From Tepidicella baoligensis (lineage in GTDB: Bacteria; Pseudomonadota; Gammaproteobacteria; Burkholderiales; Burkholderiaceae_C), in NCBI RefSeq assembly GCF_013432195.1, contig NZ_JACCDB010000004.1, forward strand, positions 38,818 to 102,817: a DNA stretch of 64,000 nt, read 5' to 3'. Positions 9,648 through 56,856 of the stretch are shown piece after piece (the stretch's first letter is position 1; each line of letters opens with the position of its first letter). The position numbers were made by a program, and so were the translations under genes. The notes below the pieces were generated by a model. The model saw only the letters and a program-made list of their open reading frames with translations. It had not been told where the DNA came from and searched no databases.

Positions 9648-10496
9648 TCAAACGGCCCGGCGCATCACCGTCTGCCGTTGCGTACCCAGCACCGGACTGC
9701 CCAGGGTGATCACGTCGCCCTCGCGCAGAAACACCGGAGGCTTTTGTCCCATACCCACACCGGGGGGTGTACCGGTCGGGATCAGATCACCAGGCTCCAG
9801 CCGCATGAACTGACTCAGGTAACTCACGAGGGTGGCCACATCGAAGATCATGGTGCGCGTGTTGCCAGTCTGGCGGCGCACCCCGTTCACATCCAGCCAC
9901 AGGTCGATGTTTTGCGGATCGGCCACTTCATCGGCGGTGACCAGCCAAGGACCCATGGGACAGTGGCTGGGATAGCTCTTGCCCTTGACCCACTGGCCTT
10001 CGCGCTCCATCTGGTAGGCCCGCTCCGACACGTCGTTGACCAAACAGTAACCGGCCACACAAGCCAGCGCTTCCGCGCGCGACACGTGCCAGGCGGGCCG
10101 GCCGATCACCACCCCCAACTCCACCTCCCAATCCAGCTTCTGCGAATCCGGGGGCAGCCATACCGGGTCGTTGGGCCCGCTGATACTGCCGCTGTGCTTG
10201 TTGAACACGATGGGCTGACTCGGGGGCTGCAGACCGGCTTCGGCGGCATGGTCGGCATAATTGAGCCCGATGGCCACGACGTTGCGCACCTGGCCTACGC
10301 ACGGGCCCAGTCGGGCCTGCGGTGATACCACCGGCAGCGTAGCCAGGTCCAGCGTGGCCAGTCGGGCCAGGGAGGCCGGCGTCAGCACGGCCGGCGTGAG
10401 GTCGTCGAGCACTTGCGAAAGGTCTCGCCGCACACCCTGGGCATCCAGCACACCCGGGCGTTCCTGACCAGACTCCCCATAACGAAACAATTTCAT
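9648..10496 (-). CDS. Fumarylacetoacetate hydrolase (FAH) family protein
   Basis: A 282-residue FAH-family hydrolase or isomerase. After an N-terminal domain, the catalytic domain begins near residue 75 (VAIGLNYADHAAEAG). Metal-binding acidic residues appear in LDWEVELGVVIG, and CLVNDVSERAYQ matches the conserved NDVS(A/E)R motif. SGDLIPTGTP is represented by EPGDLIPTGTPPGVGMG. Members open or hydrate acylpyruvates, 2-oxo-hept-4-ene-1,7-dioate and similar ring-cleavage products. The gene converges with the MarR gene and diverges from grpE. AAGGAG lies 8 bases before its ATG. The precise substrate is not determinable. Confidence 0.88.
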   Translation of the reverse strand: MKLFRYGESGQERPGVLDAQGVRRDLSQVLDDLTPAVLTPASLARLATLDLATLPVVSPQARLGPCVGQVRNVVAIGLNYADHAAEAGLQPPSQPIVFNKHSGSISGPNDPVWLPPDSQKLDWEVELGVVIGRPAWHVSRAEALACVAGYCLVNDVSERAYQMEREGQWVKGKSYPSHCPMGPWLVTADEVADPQNIDLWLDVNGVRRQTGNTRTMIFDVATLVSYLSQFMRLEPGDLIPTGTPPGVGMGQKPPVFLREGDVITLGSPVLGTQRQTVMRRAV

Positions 10497-43606: not shown

Positions 43607-43621
43607 GCGTTCAAAGCAGAA

Positions 43622-43639
43622 GCCGACCCGCAGGTCGGC
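43622..43639 (-). terminator. Rho-independent-type terminator after the RidA-family gene
   Basis: On the - strand GCCGACC and GGTCGGC pair perfectly (7 bp, 4-base loop) and are followed by TTCTGCTTTG. The hairpin lies 49 bases beyond the RidA-family stop and just before the tex start codon. It would close the flavoprotein-RidA operon. Confidence 0.6.
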
Positions 43640-43687: not shown

Positions 43688-44080
43688 TCAGTCGGGCACG
43701 ACAGCGGTGACTTCGATTTCCACCTTGGCCCGGTCCTCGATCAGGGCCGACACCTCCACCGCCGTCATGGCCGCGTTGTAGCAGCCGATCAGTTCCTTGA
43801 ACGCCTTGCCGATGTCGGGGTAGGCCGCCACGTATTCGCGCTTGTCGGTCACGTACCAGGTCATGCGCACGATGTGCTCCGGCTTGGCACCACCTTCGGC
43901 CAGTACCGCGACCACGTTCTCCAGCGCCTGCCGTGCTTGGACGCCGATGTCGTCGCTATGGAAAACCCCTTGTGCATCCCAACCGATCATGCCGGCAACG
44001 AATACCATGCGGCCACGGGCCGTGACCCCATTGGCATACCCCTTGGGGCGCGGCCAACCGGGCGGAAGCAGTACTTGCAT
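43688..44080 (-). CDS. RidA-family (YjgF/YER057c) protein lacking the catalytic arginine
   Basis: A 130-residue Rid-family protein. The fold marks are GYANGVTARGRMVFVAGMIGWDAQG, the ALENVVAVLAEGG helix and the C-terminal VEVSALIEDRAKVEIEVTAVV. RidA enzymes hydrolyse 2-enamine/imine intermediates using an arginine (Arg105 in E. coli, in PARS-VEV). Here the aligned position, also residue 105, is methionine (NAAMTAVEV). So it falls with Rid subfamilies not expected to be imine deaminases by that mechanism. GGAGAG precedes the ATG at 44080. It follows the flavoprotein gene by 111 bases on the same strand and probably shares its transcript. Confidence 0.88.
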   Translation of the reverse strand: MQVLLPPGWPRPKGYANGVTARGRMVFVAGMIGWDAQGVFHSDDIGVQARQALENVVAVLAEGGAKPEHIVRMTWYVTDKREYVAAYPDIGKAFKELIGCYNAAMTAVEVSALIEDRAKVEIEVTAVVPD

Positions 44081-44191
44081 GTCAACTCTCCTTGAAAAGG
44101 CTTGTGAACCGTGGTCCGATGGCTCGGCGTACATCGTCGGGGCGGAACGGAGTCCGGAACACGGTCAGCAGGCAACCCTGCACCGCCGCAC

Positions 44192-46531
44192 TCATTTTGC
44201 CCCCGCGGCTTGGGCGGCCATGGCCTTTTCACGGGCAAAGAGCGTTTCCATCTGCGCCTTGGCCGAGCGGTACTGCTTCGGCCATTCGAGCATGGTATAG
44301 CCGATCTTGGCCGCTTCGGTCAGCGTCCAGGCCGGGTTGGCCAGGTGTGGACGGGCCACCGCGCACAGGTCGGCCCGGCCGGCGGCGAGAATGGAATTGG
44401 CATGATCGGCTTCACTGATCGCTCCCACCGCAATGGTGGGGATACCGGCCTCCTGACGGATGCGATCGGCAAAGGGTGTTTGGAACATGCGGCCATAGAC
44501 CGGCTTTTCCTTCTTGCTCACCTGGCCAGAGGAGCAGTCAATCATATCGGCGCCGGCGGTCTTGAAGGCCTTGGCGATCTCGACCGCGTCGTCCGGTGTG
44601 GTGCCACCCTCGACCCAGTCGTGGGCGGAAATGCGCACCGACATCGGCTTGTCCGCCGGCCACACCGCGCGCACCGCCTGAAACACCTCCAGCGGGTAGC
44701 GCAAGCGGTTTTCCAAGCTGCCGCCGTACTCGTCGCGGCGATGATTGGTCAGCGGTGAAATGAAGCTCGACAACAAGTAGCCGTGCGCGCAGTGCAGCTC
44801 CAACCAGTCTGCACCGGCCTCGGCAGCAGCCCGAGCGGACGCAACGAACTGGGCTTTGACCTCGTCCATGTCGGCCCGAGTCATTTCACGAGCCATCTGG
44901 CTCACGCCCTCCAGGTACTGCTGCGGCGAAGCCGCCATGATCGGCCAGTTGCCGCTTTCCAGCGGCTGGTCGATGCCCTCCCACGCCACACGGGTGGACG
45001 CTTTGGGACCCGCGTGTCCGATCTGGATGCCAAACTTGGCATCGGTGTGTTGGTGGATCCAGTCCGCAATGCGTTTGAAACCGGCGGTGTGCTCGGGCTT
45101 GTAGAGGCCGGGACAGCCGGGGGTGATGCGACCCTCGGGGCTGACACAGGTCATCTCGGCAAACACCAGGCCGGCCCCACCCATGGCCCGCGCACCCAGG
45201 TGCACCAGGTGGTAGTCGGCCACCAGACCGTCCACGGCGGAATACTGCGCCATGGGCGAGACCACGATGCGGTTCTTCAAGGTCACGCCGCGCACCGTGT
45301 AGGGCGTGAACATGGGTGGAGGCACGGGCGCGGCGTCGGACACCTGAACACCAGCCCTCTCGGCAAACCAACGCTCATATCCTTCCAGCCATTGTTTGTC
45401 ACGCAGGCGCAGGTTTTCATGGCTGATGCGCTGGCTACGCGTGAGCATGGAGTACATGAACTGCTCCGGCTCGAACTGGTCGCAGTAGCGCTGACCGCAC
45501 ACCTCGAACCACTCCATGGCGTTCCAGGCCGCGTTTTGCAGGCGCAGCGTCTCCACACGGCGCAGTTCCTGGTAAGTCGCCAGCACCTCGGGCAACTTCT
45601 CGGGGCTGTCGCCCAGCAACTGAAACTGGCGGGTGAGCTCGATCGCGTCCTCGATGGCCAGTTTGGTACCAGAACCGATCGCGAAGTGTGCCGTGTGCAC
45701 GGCGTCGCCCATCAGCACCACATGGCTGCCGTTGGCATTCCTGAGCCACCACTGCTCGCACACCACGCGCTGGAAATTGAGCCAGGCCGAGCCGCGCAGG
45801 TGGCGGGCATTGGTCATCAGCTTATGGCCTTGCAGGGTATCCTTGAACAGGTTTTCACAGAAGGCGATCGACTGCTCCTGGTTCGCCTTGTCCAGCCCGT
45901 GGGCCAGCCACACCTGCTCAGGGCATTCCACGATGAACGTGGTGGTGTTCTGATCGAATTTGTAGATATGGGCCTGAAACCAGCCGTGCTCGGTCTTCTG
46001 GAAATCAAAGGTGAAGGCATCGTACAGGCGGTTCGTGCCCAGCCAGATGTAGCGGTTCGGCCGGGTGACGATATCAGGCTTGAACACCTCCTGATACCGG
46101 GTGCGGATGCGGGAGTTGATGCCATCACTGGCAACGATCAAGTCTGCATCCGGAAAATCCAGGTCCGAATCCACCTCGGTCTCGAACACCAGTTTCACAC
46201 CCAGTTGCTCGCAACGAGCCTGGAGGATGTTGAGCAGCTTTTTACGGCCAATGCCCACGAAACCATGCCCGCCGGAGCGGATGATGCGCCCCTTGAAGCG
46301 CAATTCGATGTCATCCCAGTGGTTGAAGGCCTCCTGGATCTCGTCGGCGGTTTCGCGGTCCCACTGGCGCATGTTGTCCATGGTTGCGTCCGAAAACACC
46401 ACGCCCCAGCCGAAGGTGTCGTAGGGGCGGTTGCGTTCGACCACGGTCACGTCGTGCCCGGCGTCCAGCTTCTTCATCAACAGACCCAGATACAAGCCAG
46501 CCGGGCCGCCGCCGATGCAGACGATTTTCAT
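44192..46531 (-). CDS. Two-domain flavoprotein: 2-aminobenzoyl-CoA monooxygenase/reductase or salicylyl-CoA 5-hydroxylase type
   Basis: A 779-residue fusion. Residues 1 to about 395 are a class A flavin monooxygenase ([23 protein letters not shown] motif [26 protein letters not shown]). Residues from about 405 are an old-yellow-enzyme domain ([75 protein letters not shown]). This architecture is that of Azoarcus evansii 2-aminobenzoyl-CoA monooxygenase/reductase, which hydroxylates and then reduces the ring. Close relatives are annotated as bifunctional salicylyl-CoA 5-hydroxylases. The substrate is probably an ortho-substituted benzoyl-CoA, but no matching aryl-CoA ligase is adjacent. ATG at 46531 follows AAGGAG. 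Confidence 0.9.
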
Positions 46532-46584
46532 GAGGACTCCTTCGATGGGTTGATGGACGGATGCACCATTCATTCATAAATAGT

Positions 46585-46601
46585 TTAAGCCTGAAGCTTA
46601 A
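46585..46601. promoter_or_regulatory. Palindromic operator upstream of the flavoprotein gene
   Basis: TTAAGC (46585-46590), five bases CTGAA, then GCTTAA (46596-46601) form a perfect 6-bp inverted repeat in an A/T-rich island 54 bases before the flavoprotein ATG. Size and spacing suit a MarR-family dimer. The remaining gap to 46730 holds no gene that I can support. Confidence 0.5.
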
Positions 46602-53519: not shown

Positions 53520-54695
53520 TCACAAGACCTCGAAGACGCCGGCCGCGCCCATGCCGCCGCCGATACACATGGTCACGCACACCCGCTTGGCGCCCCGGCG
53601 TTTGCCCTCGATCAGGGCATGACCGGTGAGCCGTTGGCCCGACACCCCATAGGGGTGACCCAGCGCAATGGCACCGCCGTTCACGTTGAGGCGATCATTC
53701 GGGATGCCCAACCGGTCTCGGCAATAGATCACCTGCACCGCAAAGGCCTCGTTCAACTCCCACAGGTCGATGTCCTCGACCTTCAGGCCGAGCTTTTGCA
53801 GCACCTTGGGCACGGCGAACACCGGGCCGATGCCCATCTCGTCCGGCTCGCAGCCGGCCACGGCAAAGCCCAGGAAACGCCCCAGCGGCTGGAGGTTGTG
53901 GCGGCTGGCATACGCCTCGCTGACGACCACGCAGGCCCCAGCCCCATCGCTGAACTGGCTGGCATTGCCCGCGGCCACCAGCCCGCCCGGCAGCGCCGGC
54001 CGAATGCCGCTGATGCCTTCTTTGGTGGTGCCTTCGCGCAGCCCTTCGTCTTTGCTCACCGTCACCTGCCGGGTGATGAGGCCCAGCGTCTTGTCGGCCA
54101 CCCCCATGGTCACGGTGATCGGCGCGATTTCCGCCTCGAACAACCCGGCGGCCTGCGCCGCGCAGGCTTTCTGCTGGCTCGCCGCGCCATACTCGTCCAT
54201 CGCGTCGCGGCCGATGCCGTACCGCTTGGCCACCTGCTCGGCCGTTTGCAGCATGGTCCAGTAAATCTCAGGTTTTTTCTTCTTCAGCAGGGGATCGAAG
54301 GCCATGTGCATGTTCATTTCCTGCTGCACGCAGGAAATGCTTTCCACGCCACCGGCCACGTACACATCGCCCTCACCGGCGATGATGCGCTGCGCCGCCA
54401 AGGCAATCGTCTGCAAGCCGGAGGAGCAAAACCGGTTGACCGTCAGCCCGGAGGTGGTGATCGGGCAGCCGGCGGCCAACGCGATCTGGCGCGCGATGTT
54501 CATGCCAGTCGCCCCTTCCGGGTTGGCGCAGCCCATGATCACGTCTTCCACCTCGGCGGCGTCGATGCCGGCGCGGGCAATCGCGTGCTGCACGGCATGG
54601 CCCCCAAGGGTGGCGCCATGGGTCATGTTGAAAGCCCCTTTCCAGCTCTTGGCCAGCGGGGTGCGTGCGGTCGATACGATGACGGCTTGGGTCAT
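53520..54695 (-). CDS. Acetyl-CoA C-acyltransferase (3-ketoacyl-CoA thiolase)
   Basis: A 391-residue degradative thiolase of normal length. The nucleophile is in [17 protein letters not shown] (about residue 90), followed by NEAFAVQ, the [14 protein letters not shown] histidine and the [10 protein letters not shown] cysteine. It has no internal duplication, unlike the thiolase at the left edge. It is FadA-like and lies 37 bases after the fused hydratase-dehydrogenase gene, the usual fadB-fadA order, so together they complete beta-oxidation. Confidence 0.95.
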
Positions 54696-54732: not shown

Positions 54733-56856
54733 TCAGCGGTTGAGGTCGGCGAAGGTCTTGCCTTCGGCCAGCAGGCGCCGGATCAGAGGGGCGGGCTGCC
54801 AGAATTGCGCGTCGTCATGCGGATTGCGGGCAAAGCGCTTCATGGCCTCGGCCACGTTGAACAGCCCCACGAAATCGGCGTAGTGCATCGGGCCGCCCCG
54901 GTGGACCGGGAAGCCATAGCCCGTGAGGTACACCATGTCGATGTCGCTCGGCCGGCTGGCAATGCCTTCCTCCAGAATGTGCGCCGCCTCGTTGACCAGC
55001 GCATACACCAGGCGCTGCACGATTTCCTCGTCTGCAATCTGACGCGGGGTGATGCCCAGCGCCTGGCGATGCCGCTCGATCATCTCGACCACCACCGGGC
55101 TGGGAATGGCATCGCGCTTGCCGGGGGCGTAGTCGTACCAGCCGGCGCCGGTTTTCTGCCCAAAACGCCCCATCTCGCACAGCAAATCGGCCGTCTTGCT
55201 GTAGCGCAGATGGGGTTTTTCCACATAGCGGCGCTTGCGAATGGCCCAGCCAATGTCGTTGCCGGCCAGGTCGCCCATGCGGAATGGCCCCATGGCAAAG
55301 CCGAACTTCTCGATCGCCTGATCGACTTGCTGAGGCGTACACCCCTCTTCCAGCAAAAACCCGGCTTGGCGGCTGTACTGCTCGATCATGCGGTTGCCGA
55401 TGAAGCCATCGCACACCCCAGCGACCACGCAAGTCTTCTTGATCTTCTTGCCGATGGCCATCACGGTGGCCAGCACATCCTTGGCGGTTTTCTCGCCACG
55501 CACCACTTCCAGCAGCTTCATCACATTGGCCGGGCTGAAGAAGTGCATCCCCACCACGTCCTGCGGGCGCTGGGTGAATGCGGCAATCTTGTTCACATCC
55601 AGCGTGGAGGTGTTGGTGGCCAGGATGGCGCCGGGCTTGATCACCGCATCGAGTTGCCTGAACACCTGCTCTTTCACCCCTATCTCCTCAAAAACCGCTT
55701 CGATCACCAAGTCGGCGTCGGCAATGTCCTGATAGTTCAAGGTGGTGGAGAGCAGCGCCATGCGCTGCTCGTAGATGTCCTGCTTGAGCTTGCCTTTGGC
55801 CACCTGGGCTTCGTAGTTCTTGCGGATGGTGGCCAGCCCGCGGTCCAGCGCCTCCTGCTTCATTTCCAGGATCGTGACCGGAATGCCCGCATTGAGGAAG
55901 TTCATGCTGATGCCGCCACCCATGGTGCCAGCACCGATGACGGCCACCTTCGCCACCGTGCGTTGCGGGGTGTCGGCCGGCACATCCGGGATTTTGCTGG
56001 CCGCCCGCTCGGCCACGAACAGGTGGCGCAGCGCCATGCACTCCGGGGTCATCATCAGGTTGACGAAGGTCTCGCGCTCATAGGCCATGCCCTCATCAAA
56101 CTTTTTCTTCGTGGCAGCTTCCACCGCATCCACGCATTTGACCGGCGCCGGAAAGTGCTTCGCCATGCCGCGAACCATGTTGCGGGCAAACTGGAAGTAG
56201 CCGTCGCCCTGGGGGTGCTTGCAGGGCAGGTCGCGCAACCGCGGCAGCGGCTCGCCTGCGGCGTGCTTGGCCGCCACCTCCCGGGCCAGCGCCAGGGCCT
56301 CATCCATCAGGCTGTCGGCGCTGGCCGCCAGCTTGTCAAAGAGCTTTTGGCCAGGGATCTGGGCCAGCAACTCGCTTTTCACCGGCTCACCGCTGACGAT
56401 GAGGTTGAGCGCCGGCTCCACGCCAATGGCGCGGGGCAGCCGCTGCGTCCCGCCCGCGCCCGGAATCAAGCCGAGCTTGACCTCCGGCAGGGCCACGCTG
56501 GCACCGGGCGCGGCAATCCGGTAATGGCACCCCAGCGACAGTTCCAACCCTCCCCCCATCACCACGGTGTGCAACGCGGCCACGACAGGCTTGGGCGAGG
56601 CTTCCAGCGCGTTGATCACACTGATGAGATTCGGGTCCTGGTAAGCCTTGGGTGAGCCAAATTCCTTGATGTCGGCGCCACTGGAAAAGGCCTTGCCAGC
56701 CCCGGTGAGCACGATGGCCTTGATCGCCGAGTTCTCGTTGGCCTGCTCCAGCGCCCGCACAATGCCCTGCCGGGTGCTCAGCCCCAGTCCATTCATCGGG
56801 GGGTTGTCCAGGGTGATGACGGCCACGTCGCCGTGGTCTTGGTAATGCGCGGTCAT
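54733..56856 (-). CDS. Fused enoyl-CoA hydratase/3-hydroxyacyl-CoA dehydrogenase (FadB/FadJ-like)
   Basis: A 707-residue bifunctional beta-oxidation enzyme. Residues 1-190 are a crotonase domain with [13 protein letters not shown] and both glutamates ([17 protein letters not shown] and [20 protein letters not shown]). From about 297 the NAD domain starts with [21 protein letters not shown], and [17 protein letters not shown] marks the dehydrogenase site. Two C-terminal helical domains follow. Length and order resemble peroxisomal MFE1-type enzymes as much as E. coli FadB. It is first in the long - strand enzyme operon, with a palindrome about 43 bases upstream. Confidence 0.93.

Follow-up and report, generated by a model that had tools for sequence, protein, structure and literature searches.

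A Met105 lineage of Rid proteins tied to a predicted 2-aminobenzoyl-CoA monooxygenase/reductase: a candidate enamine deaminase for a CoA thioester

Introduction

What would a Rid-family protein do without the arginine that has been called essential for imine hydrolysis by RidA? The question is raised by two adjacent genes in a 64,000-nucleotide stretch of Tepidicella baoligensis DNA (RefSeq assembly GCF_013432195.1, contig NZ_JACCDB010000004.1, positions 38,818 to 102,817; hereafter the window), one encoding a two-domain flavoprotein and the other a small Rid protein in which methionine occupies the position of RidA Arg105. In RidA this arginine holds the carboxylate of the substrate (PMC4433059), and Rids that lack it are described, in the passages we cite, as having neither deaminase activity nor a known role (PMC5619798, PMC9714295, PMC8113886, PMC4433059). 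Here, we report that the Met105 protein belongs to a lineage that accompanies the flavoprotein across many genomes, and we consider whether it may deaminate a coenzyme A (CoA) thioester.

The flavoprotein and Rid genes

The open reading frame (ORF) of the flavoprotein spans 44192-46573 on the minus strand. An ATG at 46531 has AAGGAG a few bases upstream, and this start, which agrees with the end point given in a preliminary description of the locus, yields a gene at 44192-46531 that encodes 779 amino acids (aa). Domain searches identified FAD_binding_3 and Oxidored_FMN (Pfam), and the protein matched the NCBIfam model NF006101 with 1385 bits against a cut-off of 1078, confirming the fusion of a monooxygenase to an old-yellow-enzyme that had been proposed earlier. 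The arrangement is that of ACMR, i.e., an FAD monooxygenase fused to an old-yellow-enzyme in about 780 aa. Among the best 60 of 113 matches in the PDB (E up to 1e-20), each spans a single domain and none spans both. The evidence favors the prediction that the protein is of the 2-aminobenzoyl-CoA monooxygenase/reductase type.

The Rid gene (43688-44080) lies 111 bases downstream on the same, minus strand. Its ORF as listed starts at 44134. A shorter protein of 130 aa results from the ATG at 44080, which AAGGAG closely precedes; the longer start is unsupported by the aligned relatives, which are mostly about 130 aa long. With the shorter start, the substituted residue is exactly number 105, and the loss of the arginine noted in the preliminary description stands. 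The protein is a member of the Rid superfamily (PF01042, 77 bits against a cut-off of 27.3), its AlphaFold model (mean pLDDT 93.4) matched solved Rid structures in Foldseek (best 2dyy, E 8.6e-12), and a sequence search of the PDB retrieved Rid chains with 43 bits at best. It scored below the cut-offs of two further models, TIGR00004 (Rid family detoxifying hydrolase; 54.6 bits against 106.25) and TIGR03610 (RutC; 29.9 bits against 169.1). Of the two residues that characterize the RidA subfamily, Arg105 is missing from the window protein and its clade and Glu120 is present; the window protein retains Tyr15 and Glu121, which correspond to RidA Tyr17 and Glu120. The sole other PF01042 match found in this genome, on contig C45 (L002), keeps an arginine at the RidA Arg105 motif, as read by eye.

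Conservation of Met105

We compared the window protein with its relatives at the Arg105 column. In an alignment from which 17 of 57 rows had been dropped as truncated or as having doubtful starts, methionine was present in the window protein and in 40 homologues (41/41), and among rows scoring >100 bits, some of which represent the same gene twice, it was present in 135 of 137, the two others being one serine and one sequence that ends short of the site. A mixed set, in which one gene appears twice and a Ser105 paralogue (L238) was assigned to neither group, separated the lineage from other Rids: 49 of 50 clade rows carry Met105, as opposed to none of 35 other Rids, 16 of which, including a typed E. 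coli RidA sequence, have arginine. The counts rule out a sequencing or alignment slip as the origin of Met105. Judged from these alignments, Met105 is a fixed mark of the whole Rid lineage; the earlier view of the substitution as an anomaly of one protein was not borne out.

The rest of the pocket is largely that of RidA. Glu120 was kept in all 50 clade rows (and in all 35 other Rids) and Gly31 in all 50, while Tyr17 was kept in 47. Further marks of the clade, in window numbering, are Trp34, Asn17, Tyr83, and Gly91. The exception at position 105 among the 50 rows is a leucine in an archaeal plasmid cluster (Haladaptatus, L277), where the Rid gene lies near a flavoprotein homologue that is 39% identical and a gene of the benzoate-CoA ligase family. 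Both Arthrobacter Rids have Met105, at about 36% identity to the window Rid. In a quick tree (131 columns, with many open forks), the clade Rids and the Ser105 paralogue fell on one side of a branch with an SH-aLRT of 88%.

Co-occurrence of the flavoprotein and the Rid

The association between the two genes was examined in two genome samples, one at the level of the class (369 genomes) and one at the level of the phylum (398 genomes), which share the window's genome and have five flavoprotein genomes in common. Flavoproteins were identified with NF006101 (E up to 1e-150), and Rids with a profile, A1, built from 24 Rids, whose match lists score no more than 10 or 11 candidates per genome and, in the phylum sample, omit the weakest matches. 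In the class sample, all 17 genomes with the flavoprotein had the Rid at >=155 bits, in comparison with 3 of the 352 genomes without it. In the phylum sample, the Rid (>=146 bits) was found in 69 of 71 flavoprotein genomes and in none of the other 327. These proportions rule out a chance neighbor in a single genome. A Rid thus proved to be present in 81 of 83 flavoprotein genomes in the pooled samples, not absent from most homologues of the flavoprotein, and the link put forward in the preliminary description was upheld in both samples. Genomes with both genes span 26 family labels (counted by hand from the tables).

The genes are usually close together. In the phylum sample, 61 of the 71 flavoprotein genomes had the two genes no more than 15 kb apart; in three the Rid was farther away on the same contig, in five it was on another contig, and two lacked it. 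The three genomes of the class sample with a Rid and no flavoprotein match were G060, in which the flavoprotein is cut off at a contig end; G295, in which the Rid sits behind an ABC transporter; and G332, in which a Met105 Rid (L230, 8399-9568) is found behind an SDR gene and near carboxylesterase genes, with no flavoprotein at E up to 1e-150. Below the scores of the Met105 Rids there is a wide gap: in ten flavoprotein genomes paralogues followed at 108-130 bits, and the next matches listed were at <=64 bits. These paralogues of the Met105 Rid, from genomes of the family label f216, comprise L238 (8634-9023) and its counterparts in nine others; the one copy that was read has Ser105.

Gene neighborhoods

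We further examined the surroundings of 80 named loci, i.e., the best matches of one scan, whose titles are nearly all from Burkholderiales or related betaproteobacteria and many of which are cut by contig ends. Across these loci and the window, the cluster families counted were the flavoprotein (81), the enoyl-CoA hydratase family (61), acyl-CoA dehydrogenase (55), the benzoate-CoA-ligase family (49), SDR (40), MarR (37), thioesterase (21), and ABC transporter genes (16-17). The usual set consists of the flavoprotein, an SDR, MarR, an enoyl-CoA hydratase family protein (NF006107), an acyl-CoA dehydrogenase, and a ligase of the benzoate-CoA ligase family (TIGR02262), followed by the Rid; some loci add an ABC transporter of the branched-chain type and a thioesterase before it.

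The Rid was counted in 47 loci by ORF clustering (80 loci and window), and tblastn found it within the fetched flank in 54 of the 80, in some cases cut at the edge. Of the remaining 26 loci, all except L065 were included in a genome-level test of 28 genomes (25 for loci without a Rid in the flank and three for loci with a cut Rid), and 23 of the 25 have the Rid elsewhere in the genome. Where about 10 kb were available on both sides, the Rid was present in 35 of 43 loci; in six of the other eight, it falls on the border of the fetched sequence or some 1 kb past it, after transporter genes, if the same contig is assumed from the coordinates.

A similar set of genes is carried on annotated plasmids of Comamonas, Paracoccus, Ruegeria, Sulfitobacter, Azospirillum, and Deinococcus; plasmid 1 of Paracoccus denitrificans PD1222, for instance, has the flavoprotein and the Rid in one cluster. 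The Arthrobacter plasmid pAL1 encodes a ligase, a flavoprotein that shares 50% identity with the one in the window, and a Met105 Rid (36.6% identical). Relatives of indolepyruvate-ferredoxin-oxidoreductase genes occur near the flavoprotein in a few named loci (alpha 5/80, beta 5/80, both 4/80); at L039, L040, L083, L098, and L233, perhaps their predicted products make 2-aminobenzoyl-CoA from isatinate, which would be another way into the route. In the Deinococcus plasmid cluster (L240, 9555-11968), a PF04199 cyclase and a thiamine-diphosphate enzyme are encoded between the ligase and the Rid; these genes would fit isatin hydrolysis and isatinate decarboxylation, and relatives of the cyclase occur in 6 of the 80 named loci.

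Substrate of the flavoprotein

The preliminary description had named 2-aminobenzoyl-CoA and salicylyl-CoA side by side as candidate substrates. The latter corresponds to the NCBIfam name of NF006101, 'bifunctional salicylyl-CoA 5-hydroxylase/oxidoreductase', whose cut-off the window flavoprotein exceeds; if this name described the reaction, the Rid would have no nitrogen chemistry to perform. The pAL1 protein, which adjoins a gene reported to encode an anthranilate-CoA ligase, bears the identical name, and so the name does not decide the substrate. That ligase gene, which we matched to the plasmid record by position, reportedly conferred anthranilate-CoA ligase activity on E. coli (PMC3534580). 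Tryptophan or kynurenine genes also flank a few clusters: a tryptophan dioxygenase gene lies beside the Ruegeria cluster and a kynureninase gene beside that of Arthrobacter ERGS1:01, and both genes were found in two of the 80 named loci and neither in the flanks of the other 78 (E up to 1e-15). Further, the reductase domain and the strict linkage to a Rid are easier to reconcile with a dearomatised amino product. Gene context favors 2-aminobenzoyl-CoA over salicylyl-CoA as the predicted substrate, and we consider the salicylyl-CoA reading very unlikely and the least probable of the alternatives discussed here.

Proposed reaction of the Met105 Rid

The aerobic degradation of 2-aminobenzoate is described as proceeding through 2-aminobenzoyl-CoA to 2-amino-5-oxocyclohex-1-ene-1-carbonyl-CoA (PMC4539516, PMC3534580). 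In the scheme that we propose, a ligase would make 2-aminobenzoyl-CoA, as in this CoA-thioester route of 2-aminobenzoate (anthranilate) breakdown, and the flavoprotein would hydroxylate and reduce it to 2-amino-5-oxocyclohex-1-ene-1-carbonyl-CoA, which bears an enamine next to the thioester. The Met105 Rid would then deaminate the aminated CoA ester hydrolytically, yielding 2,5-dioxocyclohexane-1-carbonyl-CoA and ammonia, with the retained Glu120 as the residue that would activate water. The deaminated product would be a beta-oxo thioester, the kind of compound on which ring-opening enzymes act, and other cluster enzymes would require it to open the ring. In the pocket, a hydrophobic residue (Met, or Leu in the archaeal version) replaces Arg105, while Glu120, Gly31 and, mostly, Tyr17 of RidA are retained. 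As the carboxyl group of the substrate is a CoA thioester and no free carboxylate is present, Arg105 would be dispensable, and a hydrophobic side chain could be useful there. We infer, leaning only slightly toward acceptance, that the Met105 Rid hydrolyses the enamine of 2-amino-5-oxocyclohex-1-ene-1-carbonyl-CoA and that the thioester explains the loss of the arginine. The wider claim, that members of a separate Met105 subfamily genuinely deaminate an enamine carried on a CoA thioester and that the arginine rule concerns substrates with a free carboxylate, we consider to be evenly balanced.

Two reported observations bear on such a step. Cells grown on anthranilate contained a CoA ester of C7H8O4, which might be the deaminated cyclohexanedione compound, and the aminated product is unstable below pH 5 (PMC3534580); because of this instability in acid, an enzyme for deamination near neutral pH would make sense.

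Several points weigh against the proposed reaction. The Arg-less Rids assayed to date had no deaminase activity in the reports cited, and the R104A substitution abolishes the activity of RutC (PMC5619798, PMC9714295, PMC8113886); as far as the passages from these papers show, the assays of Arg-less Rids used substrates with a free carboxylate. A plasmid-free mutant still grows on anthranilate (PMC3534580), and the pAL1 genes, the Rid gene included, are therefore not essential there, and chromosomal copies of anthranilate genes are suspected. The hydratase-family enzyme of the cluster could in principle add water itself. Tryptophan or kynurenine genes were near only 2 of the 80 named loci. No such Rid was detected in the genomes of L068 and L087 (two of the 28 tested at the genome level) or in the flavoprotein genomes G673 and G726 (2 of 71 in the phylum sample). 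Fisher tests of the co-occurrence gave p-values of 1e-26 and 9e-76, which treat genomes as independent, ignoring relatedness, and are indicative only. Finally, the Rids that went into the A1 profile all came from flavoprotein loci, so that it could have missed a more distant Met105 lineage elsewhere.

The assay results cited above would also suit a Rid that acts in the pathway without being a deaminase, by binding, tautomerising, or shielding the unstable dearomatised CoA ester, and the hydrophobic residue 105 together with the conserved Trp34, Asn17, and Tyr83 that mark the clade is consistent with such a role. Invariant Glu120, a candidate general acid/base, argues for catalysis instead, although it is equally invariant among the other Rids; in addition, the pathway needs a deamination, for which the other conserved genes of the cluster offer no obvious candidate. 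We regard a non-deaminase role as unlikely, if still the strongest of the alternatives.

RidA itself is a damage-control enzyme (PMC4433059), and a hydroxylated aromatic side product is reported to arise under NADH limitation (PMC3534580). The Rid might accordingly clear a leaked imine-type intermediate or 5-hydroxyanthraniloyl-CoA, with the main deamination left to the hydratase family. Against this, both pAL1 and the ERGS1:01 cluster have the Rid, and no hydratase-family gene was found in the 20-24 kb fetched for them, although the PLSDB tables have gaps and such a gene may be located elsewhere. Damage control is to us a more doubtful reading than a non-deaminase role.

A different lower module (thioesterase, small cupin, and FAA hydrolase) near the flavoprotein and Rid was found at L276 (8583-10692), L273 (9562-11861), and L278 (8496-9600, where the FAA-hydrolase match is partial), carried by Rhizobium p3 and two Arthrobacter plasmids. 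This module argues either (i) that the Rid acts immediately after the flavoprotein, in a step shared by the two kinds of module, or (ii) for a later enamine. In the second case, the Rid would deaminate a ring-opened enamine, for which AmnE with its substrate 2-aminomuconate offers a precedent. Against this, such a compound would bear a free carboxylate once the thioester is hydrolysed, and AmnE has an arginine for that group. Moreover, the Rhizobium and Arthrobacter cupins had no match in the 80 named loci (E up to 1e-6), while a cupin from Ruegeria had one, in L067. We give deamination of a ring-opened enamine little credence, less than damage control, and retain hydrolysis of the cyclic aminated CoA ester as the preferred reaction.

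Organization of the locus in T. baoligensis

Cotranscription of the flavoprotein and Rid genes is plausible only, given their common strand and the 111-base gap; no promoter-like site was found in the scanned stretch, where 0.5 were expected. Past the Rid gene, an inverted repeat, GCCGACC-TGCG-GGTCGGC, followed by TTCTGCTTT (43613-43639, minus strand), is a weak candidate for a transcript end that was read by eye and is absent from the output of a program scan. Ahead of the flavoprotein gene, 53 bases before the start codon, lies a perfect dyad, TTAAGC-N5-GCTTAA (46585-46601), a possible operator, which was the one match in the window (0.30 expected, with up to two mismatches allowed). The dyad is not conserved: its strict form was found in 1 of 96 upstream regions, namely this genome's own copy, and 15 of the 96 have a TTAA dyad of a looser pattern.

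Several genes of the usual set are found on another contig of this genome, C23 (L115, 6981-11219), where MarR, hydratase family, acyl-CoA dehydrogenase, and CoA ligase genes lie in a row; identities to cluster proteins are 70% for the hydratase family protein, 56% for the dehydrogenase, and 68% for the ligase. Judged from these similarities, from which the role of the C23 ligase is also predicted, the 2-aminobenzoate cluster is split over two contigs here, which corrects the preliminary description on this point. A search for an operator common to both parts gave no result: the C23 stretch has a single dyad match, with two mismatches, at 1533, far from the operon. On contig C12, kynureninase and tryptophan dioxygenase genes adjoin each other, and homology suggests a putative route in this genome that leads from tryptophan via anthranilate to the flavoprotein.

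In the closest relative found (L023; flavoprotein 93% identical), hydratase, dehydrogenase, and ligase genes follow the flavoprotein gene, and on its other flank are two SDRs and a CurA-type reductase resembling those of the window. Upstream of the window flavoprotein, on the same strand, are a thiolase gene (53520-54695) and a FadB-type gene (54733-56856), which may serve the lower pathway. FadB-type relatives are near the cluster, a short way past the Rid gene, in four other loci (L027, L035, L039, and L040), directly after the Rid in all of these except L035, and thiolase relatives are similarly placed in three (L038, L040, and L073). The AidB-type acyl-CoA dehydrogenase, SDR, and CurA-type genes that lie between the thiolase and FadB-type genes and the flavoprotein gene are outside the common cluster set. 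A gene of the FAA-hydrolase family at 9663-10496, about 33 kb from the Rid gene, is 59% identical to the corresponding gene of the Rhizobium cluster.

Relation to known systems and significance

The system resembles the 2-aminobenzoate cluster of Azoarcus evansii, with its ACMR, in the two-domain flavoprotein, the CoA ligase, and enzymes of the beta-oxidation type, and differs from it in that the window's genome has the cluster split between two contigs. The Azoarcus cluster described by Schuhle et al. in 2001 is reported to include a MarR regulator and a 'putative translation inhibitor' gene, as members of the Rid family used to be called; if so, the pairing itself has long been on record.

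The Met105 Rid shares with RidA its fold, invariant Glu120 and Gly31, and a mostly kept Tyr17, but has Met in place of Arg105, and its proposed substrate is a CoA thioester whereas RidA substrates have a free carboxylate. AmnE, the 2-aminomuconate deaminase, is likewise a Rid-fold enzyme acting on an enamine in the catabolism of an aromatic amine; in contrast, it has a conserved Arg117 in its cleft, which we take to be the counterpart of Arg105, acts on a free dicarboxylate, and is assigned to the RidA subfamily in the original study (PMC6742747). Rid4 to Rid7 resemble the Met105 clade in lacking Arg105 and have no known function in the account cited; compared by description only, they differ in that the arginine is replaced by tryptophan in Rid4 and Rid7 and is variable in Rid5 and Rid6 (PMC4433059).

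A regulon study from 2019 predicted Rid-family genes in benzoate regulons and ascribed to them the quenching of enamines (PMC6449761). Among the papers listed in our literature searches, which covered few subscription papers, none was found that names a Rid as the deaminase of the 2-aminobenzoyl-CoA route and none on a conserved Met105, a strict link to the flavoprotein, or a CoA-thioester substrate of a Rid; this is weak evidence of absence. The conserved Met105 subfamily and its explanation appear to be new. A tool for the prediction of catabolic pathways is reported to have omitted the 2-aminobenzoyl-CoA route for lack of knowledge (PMC9007349).

A whole lineage of Arg-less Rids is thus tied, almost one to one, to an enzyme whose product is predicted to be an enamine, and the proposal gives such Rids a first likely job, a named candidate substrate, and a chemical reason for the lost arginine. 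It would also account for deamination in the 2-aminobenzoyl-CoA route, which links the turnover of tryptophan and anthranilate to central metabolism. If the proposal is true, the arginine rule that separates active from inactive Rids would apply to substrates that carry a free carboxylate, and the search for substrates of Arg-less Rids in general should turn to compounds that have none.

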